Below are positions 8,491 to 44,310 of a stretch of DNA of 54,213 nucleotides, one piece after another (positions within the stretch are counted from its first letter, which is position 1; each line of letters starts with the position of its first letter). The notes under the pieces are model-generated. The model saw only the letters and a program-made list of their open reading frames with translations, was not told the DNA's origin and searched no databases. Source of the stretch: Methanomicrobia archaeon DTU008 (GTDB taxonomy: Archaea > Thermoplasmatota > Thermoplasmata > Methanomassiliicoccales > Methanomassiliicoccaceae); NCBI GenBank assembly GCA_001512965.1, contig LFRW01000023.1, positions 2,030-56,242 of the forward strand, given 5' to 3'. The position numbers were made by a program, and so were the translations under genes.

Positions 8491-9336
8491 CTATCGGCCT
8501 TCCCTGGCGATACGCTCTATGAGGGAATAGTCGAGATGCTCCAGGGACGCCTCGTGCAATTGGTCCAGGGAGCGCATCCACGCCTGCTTCACGTCCGCCA
8601 TGTCATCCACCGCCCCGCGGTCCCTGCCCAGGTCGAGGGAGTCCTCGGCGGGCGTCCGCAGCCTGTATAGCGGCAGAACGCCGGCGCAAGGAACGCCGGT
8701 GAGCTCCTCCAGCTTCTCGATGCCCGCACCAAGTATGGAGGGATCGCCGCGGAATCGATTGATGATGAACGCCTTGACCCGACCGCGCCATTCGGGCGGC
8801 AGGAGCATGAACGCGCCGTACAGCCCTGCGAACACCCCTCCGCGGTCGATGTCCCCGACCAGCACGACGGGGGCGTCGGCGATGTCGGCCATGACCATGT
8901 TGGCGATGTCCCGGTCGAAGAGGTTTATCTCGGCGGCCCCCCCGGAGCCTTCCAGAACGACGATGTCGGAATCGCCGGCAACGGTCAGGTATGCCTTCTT
9001 GACCGCATCGAGCAGCGCCTCCCTTGGCATCGGCCGATCGGGCCCTACGTCCATCATGGGCCGTCCCTTCAGTACGACCTGCATCCTCCGTTCTCCATGG
9101 GGCTTCAGCAGCACGGGGTTCATGGACCAGTGGGGCTCCCTTCCGCAGGCCCATGCCTGGTAGGCCTGCGATATCCCGATCTCCTCGCCGGTCGAGGTCA
9201 CATATGAGTTGAGGGAGAGGTTCTGGGCCTTGAACGGCGACACCCTCAGCCCCTGCCGGGCGAAATGCCGGCACAGCATCGCCGCTATCGTGGTCTTCCC
9301 GGCTCCCGAGGTGACCCCCAGCACCATGATCTTCAT
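8491..9336 (-). CDS. CobQ-type N-terminal domain protein lacking the glutaminase domain
   Basis: The 281-residue protein carries the dethiobiotin-synthetase-like ATPase domain of cobyric acid synthase: P-loop GVTSGAGKT at residues 7-15, VSPFKAQNLSLNSYVT, MNPVLLKPHGERRMQVVLKG, VVLEGSGGAAEINLFDRDIANM and VLVGDIDRGGVFAGLYG. It ends at about residue 281 with no class I glutamine amidotransferase domain, whereas full CobQ has ~490-600 residues. It overlaps the end of the full cobQ gene by 4 bases, so it is translationally coupled to it. Inference: an amidase accepting ammonia or a partner glutaminase, or a diverged subunit acting on another corrinoid group. The stop is TAG. Confidence 0.8.
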   Translation of the reverse strand: MKIMVLGVTSGAGKTTIAAMLCRHFARQGLRVSPFKAQNLSLNSYVTSTGEEIGISQAYQAWACGREPHWSMNPVLLKPHGERRMQVVLKGRPMMDVGPDRPMPREALLDAVKKAYLTVAGDSDIVVLEGSGGAAEINLFDRDIANMVMADIADAPVVLVGDIDRGGVFAGLYGAFMLLPPEWRGRVKAFIINRFRGDPSILGAGIEKLEELTGVPCAGVLPLYRLRTPAEDSLDLGRDRGAVDDMADVKQAWMRSLDQLHEASLEHLDYSLIERIAREGR

Positions 9337-11141
9337 GCCCCTTCCTCCATGATCCGCATGAGCCTGTCGACGTCGATGTGTTCGCTCACGATCCTGGCGA
9401 CCTTGGCGATGCCTGCCTCCACCGCCGATTCATAGTCGATCTGCTCCGCGCTCTCCCTCCCCTTCCCTGCAAGGGAGAGGAACCTGCTCCGGAACGATGT
9501 CAGGTCGAACAGCCCATGGACATAGGTCCCCATCACCATCCCGTCCTCGGATACGCTGCCCTCGTCCCTCTCCCCTTCCTCTGAGCGGAGGACGAACAGG
9601 GGCTTCTCTTCCGTCTCCGTCGTCCCCATATGTATCTCGTATCCGCGTATCTCCCCTCCATCCAGCAGGCGCCCCTCGACCCGAACGGTCCTCTTCTCAT
9701 ACGCGTCGAACCTGCTCACCGAACGAAGGAGGCCCAATCCCTCATAGGAGCCTCCCTCATCGACCTCCACCCCGTTGGGGTCCTCTATCCTGGTCCCCAG
9801 CATCTGATATCCGCCGCAGATCCCCAGTATGGGCACCTCGCCCCGACGGTCCATGATGGCGCGGTCGAGCCTCTGCCTGCGAAGCCATTGAAGGTCGGCA
9901 ACGGTGCTCTTCGTTCCCGGGATGACCAAGGCGTCCACCGCGGCCACCTCGGACGGGCTGTCGATGAACGATACCGAGGCGCCTCCCCCTATCTCCAATG
10001 CATCGAAGTCGGTGAAGTTGGAGATGTGTGGAAGCCGGATCACCCCGACCTTGATGCCGCCGTTCCCCCGGCCTTCAAGTCCCTGGGAGTCCTCATCGGG
10101 AAGCGCATGCTCGATGTGGGGCACCACGCCCAGCACCGGGACGCCGGTGAGCCGCTCAAGCTCATCGATCCCCTTCTGAACGCTTTCGGCGCTTCCATGC
10201 ATGTTGTTGATGATCACGCCCTTGAAACGCGACCGTTGCTCGGGCGGCAACAGCATGAGGGTGCCATATGCATAGGCGAACGCCCCACCCCACTCGATGT
10301 TCACCACGAGTATGCATGGAGAGTCGGTGATCTCGGCGGTCAGCATGTTAGCCAGGTCGGCCTCCGCCAGATTGATCTCCGCCGGTGAGCCGGCGCCCTC
10401 GATGACGATGGCGTCGAAGCGGAGCTCCAGATGGTGGAACGCCTCCCTCACCACCCTAGCCCCCTCGCCGGTGGTGAATCCGCCGTAGTAGGTGCCAACG
10501 CTCATGTCCTTGTATGGGCGGCCAAGCACGACCACCTGGGAGATATCGTCCTTCTTCGGCTTGAGCAGCAGGGGGTTCATGCGAGCCTCCGGCTCGACGC
10601 GGCATGCCTGCGCCTGCAGCGCCTGGGCGCGGGATATCTCCTCCCCTCTTGGCGTGACCGTGGAGTTCAGCGACATGTTCTGCGATTTGAAGGGCGCGAC
10701 CCTCATCCCCTTATCCGCCAGGATGCGGCATATCGCAGCGACCATGAGGGTCTTGCCGGCCCCTGACGTCGCGCCCATCACCATCAGGCGCTCCGCCTTC
10801 ACCTTGAAGGAGCGTTCCAGCTCGTCCTTGATGGCCAGCAGCTCCTCGTGGCTGGGGCGGCCCCTGCCCGACAATCGCGCCTTGGCGGCGCGGCCAACAT
10901 CGGGCCGGTGGATCCACAGGCAGTCCTGGCATGACCACACCTGGCCGCCGCTGCGGGATTCGACGAACGTGCCCAGTCGGTCGTCTAGGCAGGGATAGAA
11001 CGGACAGAAGCACAGCGTGCAGTCCTGCCCTTCATGATGGCAGGGATAATAGTCGCAACTCTCGTTGCTGCCCGTGTTTCCGGACAGCCCCTCCTCCACC
11101 TTGTGCCAATAGTCCGCTCGTGCCTTATCGGAGTCAACCAT
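9333..11141 (-). CDS. cobQ: Cobyric acid synthase with N-terminal cysteine-rich domain
   Basis: The 602-residue CobQ/CbiP amidates the b, d, e and g side chains of adenosylcobyrinate diamide using glutamine and ATP. Residues 1-80 form an extra cysteine-rich module with eight Cys (29, 34, 41, 44, 46, 51, 71, 74), probably a metal site. The ATPase domain starts at the P-loop GATSGAGKT (123-131), with KSQNMSLNS and VIEGAGSPAEINL. The C-terminal GATase domain shows the nucleophile ILGICGGYQMLG and catalytic His in YVHGLFD. The promoter faces the fur-cbi operon across a 94-base region containing a palindromic operator, so metal-dependent control is likely. First gene of a two-gene unit with the truncated paralogue. 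Confidence 0.92.
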   Translation of the reverse strand: MVDSDKARADYWHKVEEGLSGNTGSNESCDYYPCHHEGQDCTLCFCPFYPCLDDRLGTFVESRSGGQVWSCQDCLWIHRPDVGRAAKARLSGRGRPSHEELLAIKDELERSFKVKAERLMVMGATSGAGKTLMVAAICRILADKGMRVAPFKSQNMSLNSTVTPRGEEISRAQALQAQACRVEPEARMNPLLLKPKKDDISQVVVLGRPYKDMSVGTYYGGFTTGEGARVVREAFHHLELRFDAIVIEGAGSPAEINLAEADLANMLTAEITDSPCILVVNIEWGGAFAYAYGTLMLLPPEQRSRFKGVIINNMHGSAESVQKGIDELERLTGVPVLGVVPHIEHALPDEDSQGLEGRGNGGIKVGVIRLPHISNFTDFDALEIGGGASVSFIDSPSEVAAVDALVIPGTKSTVADLQWLRRQRLDRAIMDRRGEVPILGICGGYQMLGTRIEDPNGVEVDEGGSYEGLGLLRSVSRFDAYEKRTVRVEGRLLDGGEIRGYEIHMGTTETEEKPLFVLRSEEGERDEGSVSEDGMVMGTYVHGLFDLTSFRSRFLSLAGKGRESAEQIDYESAVEAGIAKVARIVSEHIDVDRLMRIMEEGA

Positions 11142-11159
11142 CTGCCAGCACCCGGCCTA

Positions 11160-11176
11160 TTGGATGAATCATCCAA
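11160..11176. promoter_or_regulatory. 6-5-6 palindromic operator between cobQ and fur-cbiMNQO
   Basis: TTGGAT-GAATC-ATCCAA lies between the minus-strand TATA box (11178-11190) and the predicted start of the cobQ transcript (near 11158), the position expected of a repressor site. The same arm sequence and 5-base spacer recur twice at the peptide/radical SAM operon (34930-34948 and 35002-35020). Confidence 0.7.
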
Positions 11177-11177
11177 C

Positions 11178-11211: not shown

Positions 11212-11235
11212 CTTTCAGTAACGATTACTATTATC

Positions 11236-11619
11236 ATGGTGGAACGGAAGCGATGGTCCAAGCAGTCGCGGACCATCCTTGACATCATCTACAACAACGA
11301 GGAGGGTCTTACGGCGAGCGAGATATACGACATCGCCAGGGAGACACATCCCAACATCTCCCTTGGAACCGTCTATCGGAACCTCAGGGACCTTCAGGAT
11401 GTTGGATTGATAAGGGAGACGACATCTGGGGGGGTGAGCGTCTACTTCAAGCATCCGTTCCACAGCGCCTATCTCGAATGCGACGTGTGCCATAGCGTCA
11501 TTCCGGTGGATTTCATGCTCAATATCGGCGACATAATCCGCAGCACGGGCCACGACGTCAAGAGATGGGACCTGAAACTGATAGGAACTTGCAAGGAGTG
11601 TTTGCAGAAATGCACATAA
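11236..11619 (+). CDS. Fur-family metal-responsive transcriptional regulator
   Basis: The 127-residue cytoplasmic repressor has an N-terminal winged helix ([36 protein letters not shown], including the family hallmark SLGTVYRNL) and a C-terminal metal/dimerisation domain ([21 protein letters not shown]), with a second cysteine pair CKECLQKC at the end that likely completes a structural Zn site. ATG 11236 is chosen because of the TATA box at 11202-11211. The gene overlaps cbiM by 10 bases, so regulator and cobalt transporter are one operon. Most likely it senses Co or Ni and binds the palindrome at 11160-11176. Metal and target are inference. Confidence 0.88.
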
Positions 11620-12305
11620 TGGAAGGCTTCCTACCTGTGGAATGGGCGGTCTTTTGGTCCATATTGTCGGTCCCCGTCGTGGTCTGGGGTTTCTTCAAGA
11701 TCCGAAAGCTGTTCGCGGAAAGTCCCGAGATGAAGATGAGCGTGGCCCTTGCCGGCGCGTTCATATTCGTCCTGTCATCGCTGAAGCTGCCGTCGGTCAC
11801 CGGGTCCTCGTCCCACCCGACGGGGACGGGGGCCTCGACGATCCTACATGGGGTGGCGATTACGTCCGTCCTCTGCACCATCGTCCTGGTGTTCCAGGCC
11901 CTGCTTCTGGCGCACGGCGGGATCACCACCCTGGGAGCGAACATCTTCTCCATGGGCATCGCCGGACCGTTCGTCGGCTGGCTGGCTTACAGGGGCATGA
12001 TGAGGGCCAAGCTCGGCCTGGTCCCGACGGTCTTCGCGACAGCCTTCCTGGCCAACTTCTCCGCCTACATCGTCACGGCCCTGCAGCTCGCCCTTGCGTT
12101 CCCCACGGCCGGGAGCGTCATGACCTCGTTCATCACGTTCTTCGGCATCTTCGCCGTCACCCAGATACCTTTGGCGGTGGTCGAGGGTGTACTGTTCATC
12201 ATGTTCTTCGATTACCTTGCGAGGACACGGCCGGACCTGCTCAAGGGAAAGCTGAACCTCAGGCCCAAGGACTCGAACGCCCCGGTGAAGGCGGTGGAGG
12301 CATGA
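11610..12305 (+). CDS. cbiM: Cobalt ECF transporter S component CbiM
   Basis: The 231-residue substrate-binding membrane protein of the CbiMNQO Co2+ importer begins MHIMEGFLP, the invariant N-terminus whose His2 coordinates the metal; this fixes the start at 11610, inside the end of fur. Further motifs are [19 protein letters not shown] (the conserved His-containing loop), [23 protein letters not shown] and [11 protein letters not shown]. About six to seven membrane helices are visible. It overlaps cbiN by 4 bases. CbiM also serves Ni uptake in NikM relatives, but the neighbouring cbiN and cobQ favour cobalt. Confidence 0.95.
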
Positions 12306-12656: not shown

Positions 12657-13454
12657 ATGAACACGATGGATGAGATCGCATACAGTTCACCGTTCAGGGA
12701 CTGGTCTCCTCTGGGCAAGCTCGCCCTTACCCTCTCCCTGCTGGTCTCCTCGCTGATCGCATCGTCCATCCTGATCCCCCTGATAGTGTTCCTCGTCGGC
12801 TTCGCCCTATTCTTCCACTCCACTCGACTGCGGCTGCCCAGGGTGATCGCCTTCGCGTTGCTCAATGCGTTGTTGATCTTCATCGTCAGCGCGCTGGTCA
12901 TCGCACTCGTGACCGCAGGCCAGCCTCTTTGGGCCGTGGACCTATGGGTCGTCACCCTGCATTTCTCGCAGGAAGGTGTCCAACTGGCGACCCTGGTCTT
13001 CTTCAGGGCGGTCGCCGGAGTGATGGTCATGCTGTTCTTCGCCGCCTCCACCCCGCTGCCCCAGCTCGCCAACGCACTTCGCCAGGTGAAGGTTCCCAAG
13101 GAGATCGTGGAACTGACGGTGCTGGTGTACCGCTATTCCTTCCTGCTGCTGGAACAGCTCAGCACGATGTACGTGGCCGCGGACTGCCGGCTGGGGTTCC
13201 GGGGATACCGGAACAAGTACCGGACCACATCCAAGCTCGCGGTCAACGTGTTCACCCGCTCGATGGACATGGCCGAGCGGTCCCAGGTGGCGCTGAACGC
13301 CCGCGGCTTCCGGGGAGTGTTCCACTCTTATCGGTCACCGGTAAGGCTGTCCATTAAATGGATCGTTCTCTCCGCGGCGGTGTTCTTCTCCCTATATGCG
13401 ATCAACCAGCTGGTCGTAGAACCCGGCCATGTGCTGGGAATGTTCAAGATGTGA
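12657..13454 (+). CDS. cbiQ: Energy-coupling T component CbiQ
   Basis: The 265-residue membrane scaffold of the ECF cobalt importer couples ATP hydrolysis by CbiO to CbiM. It has several membrane helices in the N-terminal half and the coupling-helix region near residues 180-225, with the characteristic alanine/arginine-rich motifs (AERSQVALNARGFRG; MYVAADCRLGFRGYR) that dock onto the ATPase. A ribosome-binding site GGGGGATGAG precedes ATG 12657. It follows cbiN by 40 bases and precedes cbiO by 5. Confidence 0.93.
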   Translation: MNTMDEIAYSSPFRDWSPLGKLALTLSLLVSSLIASSILIPLIVFLVGFALFFHSTRLRLPRVIAFALLNALLIFIVSALVIALVTAGQPLWAVDLWVVTLHFSQEGVQLATLVFFRAVAGVMVMLFFAASTPLPQLANALRQVKVPKEIVELTVLVYRYSFLLLEQLSTMYVAADCRLGFRGYRNKYRTTSKLAVNVFTRSMDMAERSQVALNARGFRGVFHSYRSPVRLSIKWIVLSAAVFFSLYAINQLVVEPGHVLGMFKM

Positions 13455-34929: not shown

Positions 34930-34948
34930 GTTGGATGTTATATCCAAC
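34930..34948. promoter_or_regulatory. Palindromic operator 1 of the peptide/radical SAM operon
   Basis: GTTGGAT-GTTAT-ATCCAAC is a perfect 7-bp-arm palindrome with a 5-base centre, about 20 bases upstream of the TATA element at 34969. It has the same arms and spacing as the site at 11160-11176. Confidence 0.75.
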
Positions 34949-34968
34949 TCTGTTTGGCATACCGTTAT

Positions 34969-34980
34969 CTTATTATATGG
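34969..34980 (+). promoter_or_regulatory. TATA element of the peptide/radical SAM operon
   Basis: CTTATTATATGG predicts transcription from about 35003, right inside operator 2. Confidence 0.6.
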
Positions 34981-35001
34981 AAAAACGGCGATCCTGTGAT
35001 A

Positions 35002-35020
35002 GTTGGATTATACATCCAAC
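35002..35020. promoter_or_regulatory. Palindromic operator 2 of the peptide/radical SAM operon
   Basis: GTTGGAT-TATAC-ATCCAAC overlaps the predicted transcription start and ends just before the ribosome-binding site AGGAGGG (35023-35029). Binding here should block transcription. Confidence 0.75.
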
Positions 35021-35035
35021 TTAGGAGGGAAAGAA

Positions 35036-35131
35036 ATGAGCGTGGTAATGTGTAGGATGGAGTGCAGAGTGGACGGCAACGGCCTCTCCCACTACATCAT
35101 CTACGACGGAGCGGGCGAGCTGCCCTTCTAA
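35036..35131 (+). CDS. cbpA: 31-residue precursor peptide of a radical-SAM-modified peptide (CbpA-like)
   Basis: A small gene with a strong ribosome-binding site AGGAGGG seven bases before its ATG encodes MSVVMCRMECRVDGNG, then a C-terminal part LSHYIIYDGAGELPF. It has only two Cys (6 and 10) near the N-terminus, a central VDGNGLSHYIIYDG and an ELPF end; no signal peptide. It is followed after 36 bases by a radical SAM/SPASM enzyme, the standard layout of ribosomally made, post-translationally modified peptides. From memory, methanogens have an annotated CbpA/CbpB pair of this kind with unknown product; I assign the name on size, Cys pattern and context. Confidence 0.68.
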   Translation: MSVVMCRMECRVDGNGLSHYIIYDGAGELPF

Positions 35132-35167
35132 ACCCCTTCCCCAAACCCATTTTCCAAGGTGAAAGAA

Positions 35168-36583
35168 ATGATCTCTGAGCAATCACTACCTAGCGAAAGC
35201 GCCATTCGACCGTTGGGACTGAACTCCGGTACGGGGCCGCACCTGCAGCTCATCGACGTGGGAGAATGGTACGCCCTGCTCGATCCCGACATGATGTTCT
35301 GGGCCCTCGTATCCAAGGATCGCGATCTGACCCGCGCCCTGAACGAAGAGATCCTCCCCAGATATGCGGAACATGCCGAGGACATGAGGAGGGAGCTCCA
35401 TGAGTTCCGCGCCTCTGAACGCTTCTCGGCCGTGTACTTCAATCCCACCGGGCTATGCAATGCCTCTTGCCGTTACTGCTACCTGCCGGACGGCCTCCGG
35501 AGAGAGGGGAGGAACATGAGCTACGATGAGATCTCCAAGGCGTTGGACAATCTCCACGCGTTCTTCGAGAGCTATCCTGGCTCGGTCATGCGCAATCGGG
35601 ATGGCAGGAAGCCGGTGATAGTGTTCCACGGCAGCGAACCGCTGCTCGTGAAGGATGCCATAAAGCAGGCGGTCCTCGACCATTCCGACCGTTTCGTGTT
35701 CGGCGTGCAGACCAACGCCTGGCATCTGGACGACGATACGGCCGACTTCTTCATGGACCACAAGGTGTCGGTAGGCATCTCCCTTGACTCTCCGAAGAAG
35801 GAGATACATGACTCGATCCGCCCGCTGCGGGGAGGCGAGGGGAGCATGTACGACAGGGCGGTGCACGCCATAGAGCATCTTGACGGCTACAAGGCCATGA
35901 GCGTCATCTGCACGATCAGCTCGATGAACGTCCACACTCTACCGGACATGATCGATTTCCTTGCCGATAGGAAGGTGCCCTCGGTGCTGATGAACCCGGT
36001 GAGGGGGACTCAGGAGGTGGCCCGGGCGCTCCGTCCGGAGGACGAGGCGCTCATCCCCAACTTCATGGCCGCGGTGGAACGAGCGGTCCAGCGAACCAAG
36101 GAGGGGCAGCGTATCACCATCGCCGACTTCTCCAACCTGGTGCTGGGCATAGTTGCGCCGATGGGTCGGAGGCTGATGTGCGACATCACCCCCTGCGGAG
36201 GGGGTCGATGCTTCATCTCCGTCTCCTCGGACGGGTCCATATACCCGTGCAGCGAGTTCCTCGGCCTGAAGGAATGGAGGTCGGAGAGCGTCTTCACGCC
36301 CGGAGGGGTGGAGAGGGCCGTCAGGTCGCCTCAGCTCGCGACGGTGCGCAACAGGTGGGCCGAGAGCATCCCTGTCTGTTCATCCTGTGCCCTGCGCAAC
36401 ATATGCGGCGCGCCCTGCCCTGGAGAGGTCTTCGCGGAGAAGGGCAGCATAATGAACAAGAGCCCCTACTGCAACTTCTATGAGGCCGTAATCCGTCATG
36501 CATTCCAGCTGATCGGACGGGGGGAGCTGCCGAACCTGGTGCGCGTCGACGGATACGATTTCCGATACAACGTCTTCCAATGA
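35168..36583 (+). CDS. cbpB: Peptide-modifying radical SAM/SPASM enzyme (CbpB-like)
   Basis: The 471-residue enzyme has a radical SAM core with CNASCRYC at C97, C101, C104 for the SAM-cleaving [4Fe-4S] cluster and an HGSEP motif (residues 154-158). The C-terminal SPASM-like domain has Cys at 338, 343, 348, 361, 404, 407, 413, 417 and 435, enough for two auxiliary clusters. An N-terminal ~85-residue region (LQLIDVGEWYALLDPDMMFWALV) could be the peptide-recognition element. The ATG at 35168 follows GGTGAAAGAA; the GTG at 35159 is an alternative. Likely modifies the 31-residue peptide (thioether, epimerisation or C-C bond). It has the two operators upstream of its operon. Confidence 0.85.
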   Translation: MISEQSLPSESAIRPLGLNSGTGPHLQLIDVGEWYALLDPDMMFWALVSKDRDLTRALNEEILPRYAEHAEDMRRELHEFRASERFSAVYFNPTGLCNASCRYCYLPDGLRREGRNMSYDEISKALDNLHAFFESYPGSVMRNRDGRKPVIVFHGSEPLLVKDAIKQAVLDHSDRFVFGVQTNAWHLDDDTADFFMDHKVSVGISLDSPKKEIHDSIRPLRGGEGSMYDRAVHAIEHLDGYKAMSVICTISSMNVHTLPDMIDFLADRKVPSVLMNPVRGTQEVARALRPEDEALIPNFMAAVERAVQRTKEGQRITIADFSNLVLGIVAPMGRRLMCDITPCGGGRCFISVSSDGSIYPCSEFLGLKEWRSESVFTPGGVERAVRSPQLATVRNRWAESIPVCSSCALRNICGAPCPGEVFAEKGSIMNKSPYCNFYEAVIRHAFQLIGRGELPNLVRVDGYDFRYNVFQ

Positions 36584-41522: not shown

Positions 41523-42713
41523 ATGGATCGCGTTTATTTCGACAACAGCGCCACCACCCGGGTAGACGACCGCGTGCTGGACGCGATGCGCCCGTATTTT
41601 CTCGAGAAGTATGGAAATGCATCTTCATTGCATTCCTTCGGTCACGAGGCCTATGATGCGATGGAGGCGGCGAGGGAACAGGTCGCGAAAGCGGTGAACG
41701 CTGCCCCCAGGGACATCATCTTCACATCGGGCGGCACGGAATCGGACAACCTTGCACTGCAGGGGGCCGCATTCGCCAATGCGTCCAAGGGCAAGCACAT
41801 CATCACGTCTTCTGTGGAGCATCATGCGGTCCTGCACACATGCCAGTTCCTGGAGGCACAAGGCTTCAAGGTCACCTATCTTCCCGTGGACAGCGAAGGG
41901 TTCGTCTCAGAGGAGGACCTCAAGAACGCCCTGACGCCCGAGACGACGCTGGTCTCCATAATGATGGCCAACAACGAGATAGGGACGATACAGCGCATCA
42001 AGGACCTGGCGGAGATAGCCAAGGACAAGGGAGCGCTGTTCATGACCGATGCGGTGCAGGCCTTGACCAAGATACCTGTCGACGTGGAGAGGTTGAACGT
42101 GGACCTGCTGACGATGTCGGCCCACAAGTTCCACGGGCCAAAGGGCGTGGGGGCCCTGTATGTCCGAAAGGGTGTGAAGCTCCGCCCCATCATCTACGGT
42201 GGCGGCCACGAGCGCGGCCTGCGCTCCTCAACCGAGAACATCCCCGGAATAGTGGGGATGGGGAAGGCGGCCGAGCTGGGCATCGCGGAGATGGATGAGA
42301 GCGTCGAGCGGATGGAGAGGATACGCGACCATCTGATCGACGGCACGCTCTCCGCCGTGCCGAGGTCCTACCTGAACGGCCCCAGGGGAGATGGCAGGCT
42401 ATGCAACAATGCCAACTTCCGATTCGATTACATCGAGGGGGAGGGCATGGTGCTGTTGCTCGACATGCAAGGCATCGCCGCGTCCACCGGCTCCGCATGC
42501 TCCACCAAGAGCCTGGAGCCCTCTCATGTGCTACGTTCGCTGGGCCTGAGGCACGAACAGTGCCATGGGTCCCTCAGACTGAGCCTGAGCAAGTTCAACA
42601 CCATGGAGGAAGCGGATCGCTTCTTGGAGGCCATACCGCCGATAATCGAGAGACTTAGGAAGATGTCCCCGCTGGGGGAAGGAGTGTCATACGATGTGCC
42701 CGCAGTACAGTAA
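41523..42713 (+). CDS. nifS: NifS/IscS-type cysteine desulfurase
   Basis: The 396-residue PLP enzyme supplies sulfur for Fe-S cluster assembly on IscU. Motifs: VYFDNSATTRVD, FTSGGTESDNLAL, SSVEHHAVLHTC, PLP-binding lysine in MSAHKFHGPKGVGALY and the catalytic Cys in AASTGSACSTKSLEPSHVL (group I loop). A ribosome-binding site GGAG (GCAGGAGACG) precedes ATG 41523. Its end overlaps the iscU start by 20 bases, so desulfurase and scaffold are coupled. Confidence 0.95.
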   Translation: MDRVYFDNSATTRVDDRVLDAMRPYFLEKYGNASSLHSFGHEAYDAMEAAREQVAKAVNAAPRDIIFTSGGTESDNLALQGAAFANASKGKHIITSSVEHHAVLHTCQFLEAQGFKVTYLPVDSEGFVSEEDLKNALTPETTLVSIMMANNEIGTIQRIKDLAEIAKDKGALFMTDAVQALTKIPVDVERLNVDLLTMSAHKFHGPKGVGALYVRKGVKLRPIIYGGGHERGLRSSTENIPGIVGMGKAAELGIAEMDESVERMERIRDHLIDGTLSAVPRSYLNGPRGDGRLCNNANFRFDYIEGEGMVLLLDMQGIAASTGSACSTKSLEPSHVLRSLGLRHEQCHGSLRLSLSKFNTMEEADRFLEAIPPIIERLRKMSPLGEGVSYDVPAVQ

Positions 42714-44310
42714 GGAAGTGATGGACCACTTCACCAACCCCCGCAACGTGGGGGAGATGGAGAACCCCGATGGAATAGGCCAGGTGGGGAACCCGACCTG
42801 CCTGGTTGGCGGAAGCATGGTGCAGCTCAACAATCACTATCAGGTGATCGAGGACGTCGAAGAGAACGAAAGGGTACTGACCCATGAAGGCGTGTTCTCT
42901 AACATAGTCCGCAGGTCGGTACGTCAGTACGATGGGCCTGTCCTAACCTTCAAGAACCGGCTAGGCTCAAACACTCTGACTCCAGATCACCTGGTTTACG
43001 CTATCAAGCGCCCTCCAACCCAGAAGTATCGATCAACCAGGAACATGAAAACATTAAGGCCCGACTGGTACCATGCCGAAGAGCTGGAACGGGGGGACAT
43101 CGTCCTATATCCAGTGATGAAGGAAATCCGAGATCAGGACATGGTCGAATTGAACATCACAAATGGAAAGTTCGATCATCGCAGTCATGATTTGCCAGAG
43201 AAGGTGCCGCTTGATGCTGATTTCCTACGACTTGCGGGTTTCTATTTGTCAGAAGGAAACTCGGTGACAAAGGTGACCAAGGCACACGTATGCTTCACGT
43301 TCCATGAAGATGAGGTGGATTATCAGAACGATGTGATACGGATCGTTAAAGACCTTTTTGGATTGAAAGCATCAATAAAAACATCATCGAAACAGAAATC
43401 TTGCCATATATCTGTCGATAGTGCAAACCTGGCTAGGTTCTTTGAAGCCACGTTTGGGACCGGAGCCGAGAATAAACACATCCCTGACTTCATCATGTTC
43501 TTGCCGCCGGAGAAGCAGGTCCATCTCATTAGGGCCCTATGGCAGGGAGATGGATATGTCAACCTAGCCAGAAAAGGCCCCCGCGCCTGTTTCACCACCA
43601 TATCGACACAGCTTGCAGGACAGGTAAAAAACCTGCTCCTAAGGCAAGGTATCATTCCATCTATCTATCTGGATAATGGGTATGAGTCAAATGGTACGGT
43701 CCATAAGGATTCTTACCGGGTTCATGTGGGCGATGTTCTCTCGCTGAGGAAGCTATGCAATATATTAGGGATCGATTGCTCGCTAATTCCACAGCATCAG
43801 CGTTCCTGGATAGCTGATGGTTTCTTACATACGCCTTTGACCGGTATCACCACGCAGCACTTCAATGGAACGGTTTACAACTTCGAGGTTGCCGATCAGC
43901 ACTCATATACCACCGACTCGCTACTGGTGCACAACTGCGGGGATCTACTCTGGATATACATCAAGGTCGAGAACGATGTGATGACCGACGTGAAGTTCAA
44001 GACCTTCGGCTGCGGGGCGGCCATCGCCACCAGTAGCATGGTGACCGAACTGGCCAAGGGCAAGACGCTCGACGAGGGCCTGAAGATCACGCGCAGGGAC
44101 ATCGCGGAAAAACTGGGAGGGCTGCCGCCGCAGAAGATGCACTGCTCGAACCTGGCCGCCGATGCTCTGCACGAGGCCATACATGACTATCTAAGGAAGC
44201 AGGGGCGCGAGCCGCCGCTGCCGCCCGATGCCAAGCGGCCGCATGAGGAAGAGGCATGCGAGACCCACTTCCAGGAACCCATCCAGATCGAGAAGGAGGA
44301 GCCGAAGTAA
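42694..44310 (+). CDS. iscU: IscU/NifU iron-sulfur scaffold interrupted by an intein
   Basis: The 538-residue primary product contains a 379-residue intein. Extein N (residues 1-35: YSKEVMDHFTNPRNVGEMEN...GQVGNPT) and extein C (from CGDLLWIYIKVENDVMTDVKF) join to a ~159-residue scaffold. Its three Fe-S ligand cysteines are the C of CGD, FKTFGCGAAIATSSM and KMHCSNLAADALHEAI. The intein sits directly before the first ligand Cys, so no cluster can assemble before splicing. The C-terminal tail PPLPPDAKRPHEEEACETHFQEP is an added acidic extension. Overlaps nifS by 20 bases. Confidence 0.93.
   Translation: MCPQYSKEVMDHFTNPRNVGEMENPDGIGQVGNPTCLVGGSMVQLNNHYQVIEDVEENERVLTHEGVFSNIVRRSVRQYDGPVLTFKNRLGSNTLTPDHLVYAIKRPPTQKYRSTRNMKTLRPDWYHAEELERGDIVLYPVMKEIRDQDMVELNITNGKFDHRSHDLPEKVPLDADFLRLAGFYLSEGNSVTKVTKAHVCFTFHEDEVDYQNDVIRIVKDLFGLKASIKTSSKQKSCHISVDSANLARFFEATFGTGAENKHIPDFIMFLPPEKQVHLIRALWQGDGYVNLARKGPRACFTTISTQLAGQVKNLLLRQGIIPSIYLDNGYESNGTVHKDSYRVHVGDVLSLRKLCNILGIDCSLIPQHQRSWIADGFLHTPLTGITTQHFNGTVYNFEVADQHSYTTDSLLVHNCGDLLWIYIKVENDVMTDVKFKTFGCGAAIATSSMVTELAKGKTLDEGLKITRRDIAEKLGGLPPQKMHCSNLAADALHEAIHDYLRKQGREPPLPPDAKRPHEEEACETHFQEPIQIEKEEPK
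42799..43935 (+). mobile_element. Intein with LAGLIDADG homing endonuclease in iscU
   Basis: The 379-residue element runs from Cys1 (CLVGGSMVQLN) to Asn379 (SLLVHN), followed by Cys as the +1 extein residue. Block B is NTLTPDHLVYA (TxxH, residues 58-68), blocks F and G are TVYNFEVADQHSYT (358-371) and LLVHN. Two DOD endonuclease motifs are LAGFYLSEG (145-153) and LIRALWQGDG (243-252), both with acidic residues, so the endonuclease may be active. Its codons are visibly richer in A and T than the flanking extein, consistent with recent horizontal arrival. Confidence 0.93.

Follow-up and report, generated by a model that had tools for sequence, protein, structure and literature searches.

The closest described relatives of the locus studied here are the CbpA peptide and CbpB enzyme families, represented by the NCBIfam models TIGR04164 (cobo_pep) and TIGR04163 (rSAM_cobopep), respectively. 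The names of these models state no product or function, they do not cover operators or membership in a regulon, and no paper naming either model was found in our literature search. The curators' short names suggest that a link to cobalt had been seen earlier, so that we count as new only the operator, the corrinoid regulon that spans the order, the geometry of the promoter and the refinement of the CbpA core. The preliminary description of this locus had taken regulation as the new element, which holds for the operator but not entirely for the cobalt link.

A CBL-box for a hypothetical archaeal B12 regulator was reportedly described by Rodionov et al. in 2003; as far as its description goes, it would resemble the operator presented below in being a palindromic DNA site before archaeal corrinoid genes and not a riboswitch. 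A literature search for an archaeal corrinoid regulon returned nothing on the motif TTGGAT-N5-ATCCAA, and in a 2024 survey of Methanomassiliicoccales that discusses B12 and cobalt transport genes the word 'regulator' does not occur (PMC10804542). Among characterized enzymes, the radical SAM and SPASM layout of CbpB is common to CteB, the SCIFF maturase (PDB 5WGG, 5WHY), and to the PapB-type ranthipeptide maturases, whose substrates contain a CX3D motif discussed in PMC9413430.

The cbpAB gene pair and its relatives

The window, i.e. the whole analysed stretch of 54,213 nucleotides from Methanomicrobia archaeon DTU008 (contig LFRW01000023.1), was initially described as containing a 31-codon gene 36 nt 5' of a radical SAM/SPASM gene. 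Both genes were confirmed at that place, including cysteines at positions 6 and 10 of the peptide, its C-terminal ELPF, and the 36-nt gap between the cbpA stop and the cbpB start:

35036..35131, plus strand: cbpA, 31-residue precursor peptide (MSVVMCRMECRVDGNGLSHYIIYDGAGELPF), with a TIGR04164 cobo_pep match and coding-type substitutions
35168..36583, plus strand: cbpB, radical SAM/SPASM peptide-modifying enzyme of 471 aa, with TIGR04163 and PF04055 matches and a predicted fold near CteB

In the 22-codon core of cbpA, pairwise codon differences among nine Methanomassiliicoccales copies comprised 289 synonymous and 93 non-synonymous changes in frame, versus 19:347 and 16:348 in the shifted frames. 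Since the differences are mostly synonymous in frame and not in the shifted frames, cbpA appears to be under coding selection, and by this measure the peptide gene is really coding. In the profile search, CbpB scored 489.5 bits against TIGR04163, far above the curated cut-off of 375. TIGR04164 was the sole family match of CbpA (24.3 bits, E 1.5e-5), but the score was below the cut-off of 35, as it was for all 10 peptides tested from two phyla (17.8-29.4). The suggested CbpA/CbpB identity is thus supported, and judging from the profiles the window peptide is best called CbpA-like, the partner of a true CbpB.

Our genome-by-genome survey covered 147 Methanomassiliicoccales genomes, 23 genomes of the Hydrothermarchaeota phylum and a set of control genomes. 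CbpB was present in nine of the former and in 11 of the latter, where it is 41-46% identical to the window CbpB and is preceded in each case by a gene for a short peptide. The arrangement typical of a RiPP, a short precursor gene adjoining a gene for a modifying enzyme, was therefore found in all of these genomes of both groups. A scan of named genomes with narrow patterns returned six loci, and none of the control genomes, including Methanocaldococcus jannaschii and Methanosarcina acetivorans, contained CbpB above the cut-off. The profile search across methanogens proposed in the preliminary description thus recovered the pair in Methanomassiliicoccales but not in the controls, and because it is also rare in the order, cbpAB is not a general feature of methanogens. 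The CbpB tree shows a clean separation of the Methanomassiliicoccales and Hydrothermarchaeota-phylum lineages.

CbpA is almost invariant within Methanomassiliicoccales and is not diversifying. The Hydrothermarchaeota-phylum pairs are divergent, and the core common to both is R-x-[ED]-C-x3-[GA]-[NA]-G-L-[ST]-H-Y, with N replacing the acidic residue in one genome (G367). Both cysteines emphasized in the initial description are present in the window peptide, but only the second, Cys10, is universal in the two phyla, which weakens the idea of a metal site formed by Cys6 and Cys10; we rejected that idea.

CbpB contains the CX3CX2C motif (C97-x3-C101-x2-C104) and eight further cysteines (C338, C343, C361, C404, C407, C413, C417 and C435) that are invariant in 20 sequences and would fit two auxiliary clusters, the combination expected of a radical SAM/SPASM maturase. 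Its Pfam matches are PF04055 and, below the cut-off, SPASM. The structure was predicted with a mean pLDDT of 74.9, the auxiliary-cluster regions being of low confidence, and its best PDB match is CteB (5WHY/5WGG, E 1.3e-16), which is also the best sequence match with a solved structure (3.9e-24) but is only 17-19% identical to CbpB in the fold alignment. PapB is the next NCBIfam match after the CbpB family itself. CbpA differs from the substrates of CteB and PapB-type enzymes in having one invariant cysteine instead of a multi-Cys core. The CX3D/E spacing of ranthipeptide precursors (PapA/PapB type) is not conserved in CbpA either: counting from Cys10, position +3 holds D, K, A, S or T and position +4 holds G or A, with an acid conserved at neither spacing. 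From the family and the fold, it seems probable that CbpB, with SAM and Fe-S clusters, modifies CbpA at or around the invariant Cys10 and G-L-[ST]-H-Y. Because CbpB is related to CteB, which forms thioethers in its SCIFF substrate, the modification may perhaps be a thioether bond.

Operators and the corrinoid regulon

Two perfect GTTGGAT-N5-ATCCAAC palindromes had been noticed before the peptide gene, and both were verified; together with the AT-rich box between them, they define the following presumed promoter:

34930..34948, no strand: distal operator GTTGGATGTTATATCCAAC, exact GTTGGAT-N5-ATCCAAC, 72 bp upstream of the proximal operator
34965..34981, plus strand: presumed TATA box/promoter TTATCTTATTATATGG, read from the sequence, between the operators
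35002..35020, no strand: proximal operator GTTGGATTATACATCCAAC, exact GTTGGAT-N5-ATCCAAC, at about the expected transcription start

Comparison of the upstream regions, another of the proposed checks, revealed that all nine Methanomassiliicoccales genomes that carry cbpAB have a TTGGAT-N5-ATCCAA site starting 33-40 nt upstream of the cbpA ATG. At the distal position, about 72 bp upstream, an exact site is found in G405, and most relatives have a decayed one with a few bases changed; the relatives likewise have AT-rich boxes between the two positions. A spacing of 71-72 bp also occurs at three other operator-bearing promoters (L091, L149 and L150). In G367 (L020), cbpAB has other neighbours than in the family of the window and the operator is retained, which indicates that it belongs to cbpA itself.

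The core palindrome TTGGAT-N5-ATCCAA was counted against the expectation of a first-order Markov model. The window contains three core sites (0.0034 expected) and the 1.76-Mb genome seven (0.11 expected), with none for the reversed control pattern; across the order, the core is present in 128 of the 147 genomes and the reversed control in two. The possibility that the palindromes are chance or structural repeats with no regulatory meaning is virtually nil and already refuted by these statistics, by the order-wide occurrence and by the consistent position in promoters.

The third site of the window lies at the junction of cobQ and the fur-cbiMNQO genes. It had been described as matching the cbpA operators, which is true for the 12-base core but not for one outer base:

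9333..11141, minus strand: cobQ, cobyric acid synthase, regulon member (NF001989, 556 bits, cut-off 273)
11159..11177, no strand: operator between the divergent cobQ and fur-like/cbiMNQO genes ATTGGATGAATCATCCAAC, exact 12-base core, one outer mismatch (ATTGGAT...)
11233..11619, plus strand: gene for a Fur-family regulator, regulon member (PerR/Fur-like matches below their cut-offs)
11565..12305, plus strand: cbiM, cobalt ECF transporter, regulon member (TIGR00123, 284.5 bits, cut-off 184)
12657..13454, plus strand: cbiQ, cobalt ECF transporter, regulon member (TIGR02454, 127 bits, cut-off 112)

Besides the two sites before cbpA and the one at this junction, the genome has sites before cobT, before a gene for a BtuF-like protein accompanied by BtuCD-like and CbiE/CbiD-like genes, before a threonine-dehydrogenase-like/trpD-like pair, and between mvk and GGR. 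In a sample of 16 genomes, the ORFs adjoining sites included 17 corrinoid-type binding proteins (Peripla_BP_2), eight CobT and five CobQ, as well as CobA, CbiX/CfbA, CobN, CbiT, CobB, CbiM and a B12-binding protein. Several sites had no recognized target and some were located near unrelated genes, e.g. aconitase (L187). As judged from these neighbours, the palindrome marks an order-wide corrinoid regulon in Methanomassiliicoccales. The cobalt regulon of the preliminary description therefore stands with respect to the operator common to cobalt and corrinoid genes, but its scope is wider: it extends to corrinoid genes in general and across the order, and cbiMNQO is one of its targets. The cbpA promoter contains this same palindrome, and the predicted control of cbpAB by the corrinoid-regulon operator is well supported by the sequence comparisons. 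For the annotated CbpA/CbpB pair, an operator common with cobalt uptake and corrinoid synthesis would provide a physiological context and suggest a condition of induction that can be tested. Across the order, the palindrome outlines a candidate corrinoid regulon in methanogens that rely on corrinoid methyltransferases for their energy metabolism, and it points to additional unassigned genes.

A threonine-dehydrogenase-like gene repeatedly follows the operator (L010:201-2351, L082, L091, L149, L160 and L171; in L010, a trpD-like gene comes next), and the two are candidates for the synthesis of part of the nucleotide loop of corrinoids. In several genomes the operator is followed by genes for beta-propeller proteins of the Pfam PQQ_2 type that begin with a signal-like stretch (L079:2370-4031, L161:1121-3007) and are possible surface corrinoid binders. 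In four genomes of the genus of the window, the region where mvk and GGR converge contains an operator preceded by a TATA-like box (G000:C19:14092 [L008:6093], L078:3986, L089:4030 and L093:3976). The sequence 3' of it folds far better than shuffled sequences in L008 (z -3.5) and L078 (z -3.9); the long stem is not seen in L093, and L089 is masked there. This downstream sequence is possibly a corrinoid-controlled small RNA.

The protein acting at the operator

The two palindromes bracket the cbpA promoter and, because the proximal one lies at the presumed transcription start, a protein bound to it would block transcription; the direction of control is deduced from the same position. Fur-type proteins are common metal sensors with 19-bp palindromic targets, and the Fur-like protein encoded beside cbiMNQO, whose gene adjoins the site in several genomes (L083, L084 and L153), might be the sensor that binds these palindromes. 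A Fur regulon, however, would be expected to have the Fur-like protein wherever the site occurs, whereas it was found in 43 of the 147 genomes versus 128 for the motif. It was not detected in G405, G292, G188, G196, G160 and G253, near-complete genomes with 6-11 sites each, and G405 carries cbpAB. Because its distribution does not track the operator, the adjacent Fur-like protein is probably not the binder, and we regard this assignment as improbable.

Two other types of candidate were rejected. A Zn-ribbon/HTH-like protein encoded beside sites in G119 and G180, considered as the general regulator, was not found in the genus of the window, and a CarH-like regulator combining HTH and B12-binding parts was not seen among the six shorter of the 10 B12-binding matches in the window's genome, which read as methyltransferase corrinoid proteins without HTH. 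Two family f2 genomes encode zinc-ribbon proteins that have an HTH-like C-terminus and start beside operators (L165:3100-3621 and L181:2592-2984); these are possibly autoregulated local regulators.

The possible role of the peptide

We give about an even chance to the explanation that cbpAB is a radical-SAM RiPP operon of the Methanomassiliicoccales corrinoid (B12/cobalt) regulon, made under shortage, and that its product probably helps to acquire or handle cobalt or corrinoid. Its DNA switch is common with cobalt uptake and B12 genes, and for this reason shortage of cobalt or B12 is the probable condition under which the peptide is used. A putative repressor would bind when corrinoid or cobalt is sufficient and leave when it is short, and its release would switch on cbpAB together with the corrinoid importers, the cobalt transporter and the corrinoid synthesis genes. 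The modified CbpA could then conceivably serve the cell as a small ligand or carrier in acquiring, holding or delivering cobalt or corrinoid. The product is evidently optional, since CbpB is absent from 138 of the 147 genomes of the order, most of which have the motif.

The more specific proposal that CbpA is a dedicated cobalt/corrinoid ligand, i.e. a corrinoid-controlled RiPP metallophore or cofactor chaperone made when B12 or cobalt is scarce, is tentative. Methanobactin, a copper-regulated RiPP, is likewise a ribosomal peptide that undergoes modification and is made when a metal is short; its enzymes, metal and precursor are different, so that the comparison concerns the way of working and not homology. 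In favour of a role in cobalt or corrinoid handling, the neighbour of cbpAB in a genome of another phylum, Hydrothermarchaeota-phylum G455 (L073), is a NicO-type nickel/cobalt transporter gene. Against it, no cobalt gene was seen near cbpAB in the other loci of that phylum, and most of them have no corrinoid gene nearby either. The invariant residues suited to a metal site are only a single Cys, a single His and a single Tyr, which makes it thin, and the exporter, peptidase and leader-like extension that a secreted metallophore would need were not seen near the genes. An operator shared with the second phylum was also rejected: the cbpA promoter of G456, G458 and G460 carries a different palindrome, TTGATT-N4-AATCAA, which occurs once in each of these genomes, at that promoter, without a visible regulon.

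The NicO-type gene may also be read as a sign that CbpAB acts on nickel, or is linked with the tetrapyrrole branch common to F430 and corrinoid, and is not specific to cobalt or corrinoid. This we consider rather doubtful, because the identifiable targets in the window's genome are corrinoid genes and this genome has no NicO gene. A nickel role keeps some probability since in other families part of the regulon touches F430/nickel genes, with a CfbA-type chelatase and CfbC-like proteins encoded beside operators (L151 and L176), but the CfbC calls were below their cut-offs.

Radical SAM enzymes act on peptides in the synthesis of PQQ and mycofactocin, and the CbpAB product could similarly be a peptide-derived cofactor or redox group serving corrinoid enzymes, e.g. 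during the reactivation of corrinoid methyltransferases, with a greater need for it under corrinoid scarcity. The very strong conservation of the short core is as expected for a cofactor precursor, an intracellular product would agree with the lack of an exporter, and in the window's genome (G000) and in G405 the gene after cbpB encodes a small 4Fe-4S ferredoxin. The ferredoxin gene, however, has its own upstream region and does not adjoin cbpB in L020, no peptidase or oxidase genes for trimming share the operon, and the closest named families of CbpB are cross-linking maturases; we thus consider a cofactor unlikely.

Many radical-SAM RiPPs are antimicrobial or signalling. That general knowledge and the patchy occurrence of cbpAB in the order would suit a secreted signal or a weapon against corrinoid competitors, released when corrinoid is short, but we assign it only a slim chance, as the near-invariance of CbpA argues against it and neither an exporter nor an immunity gene, signal peptide or leader was found. 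Acquisition or handling of cobalt or corrinoid within the corrinoid regulon remains our preferred explanation.

Elsewhere in the window (42694-44310, plus strand), an IscU-like Fe-S scaffold protein is apparently split by an insert that is several hundred residues long and intein-like.
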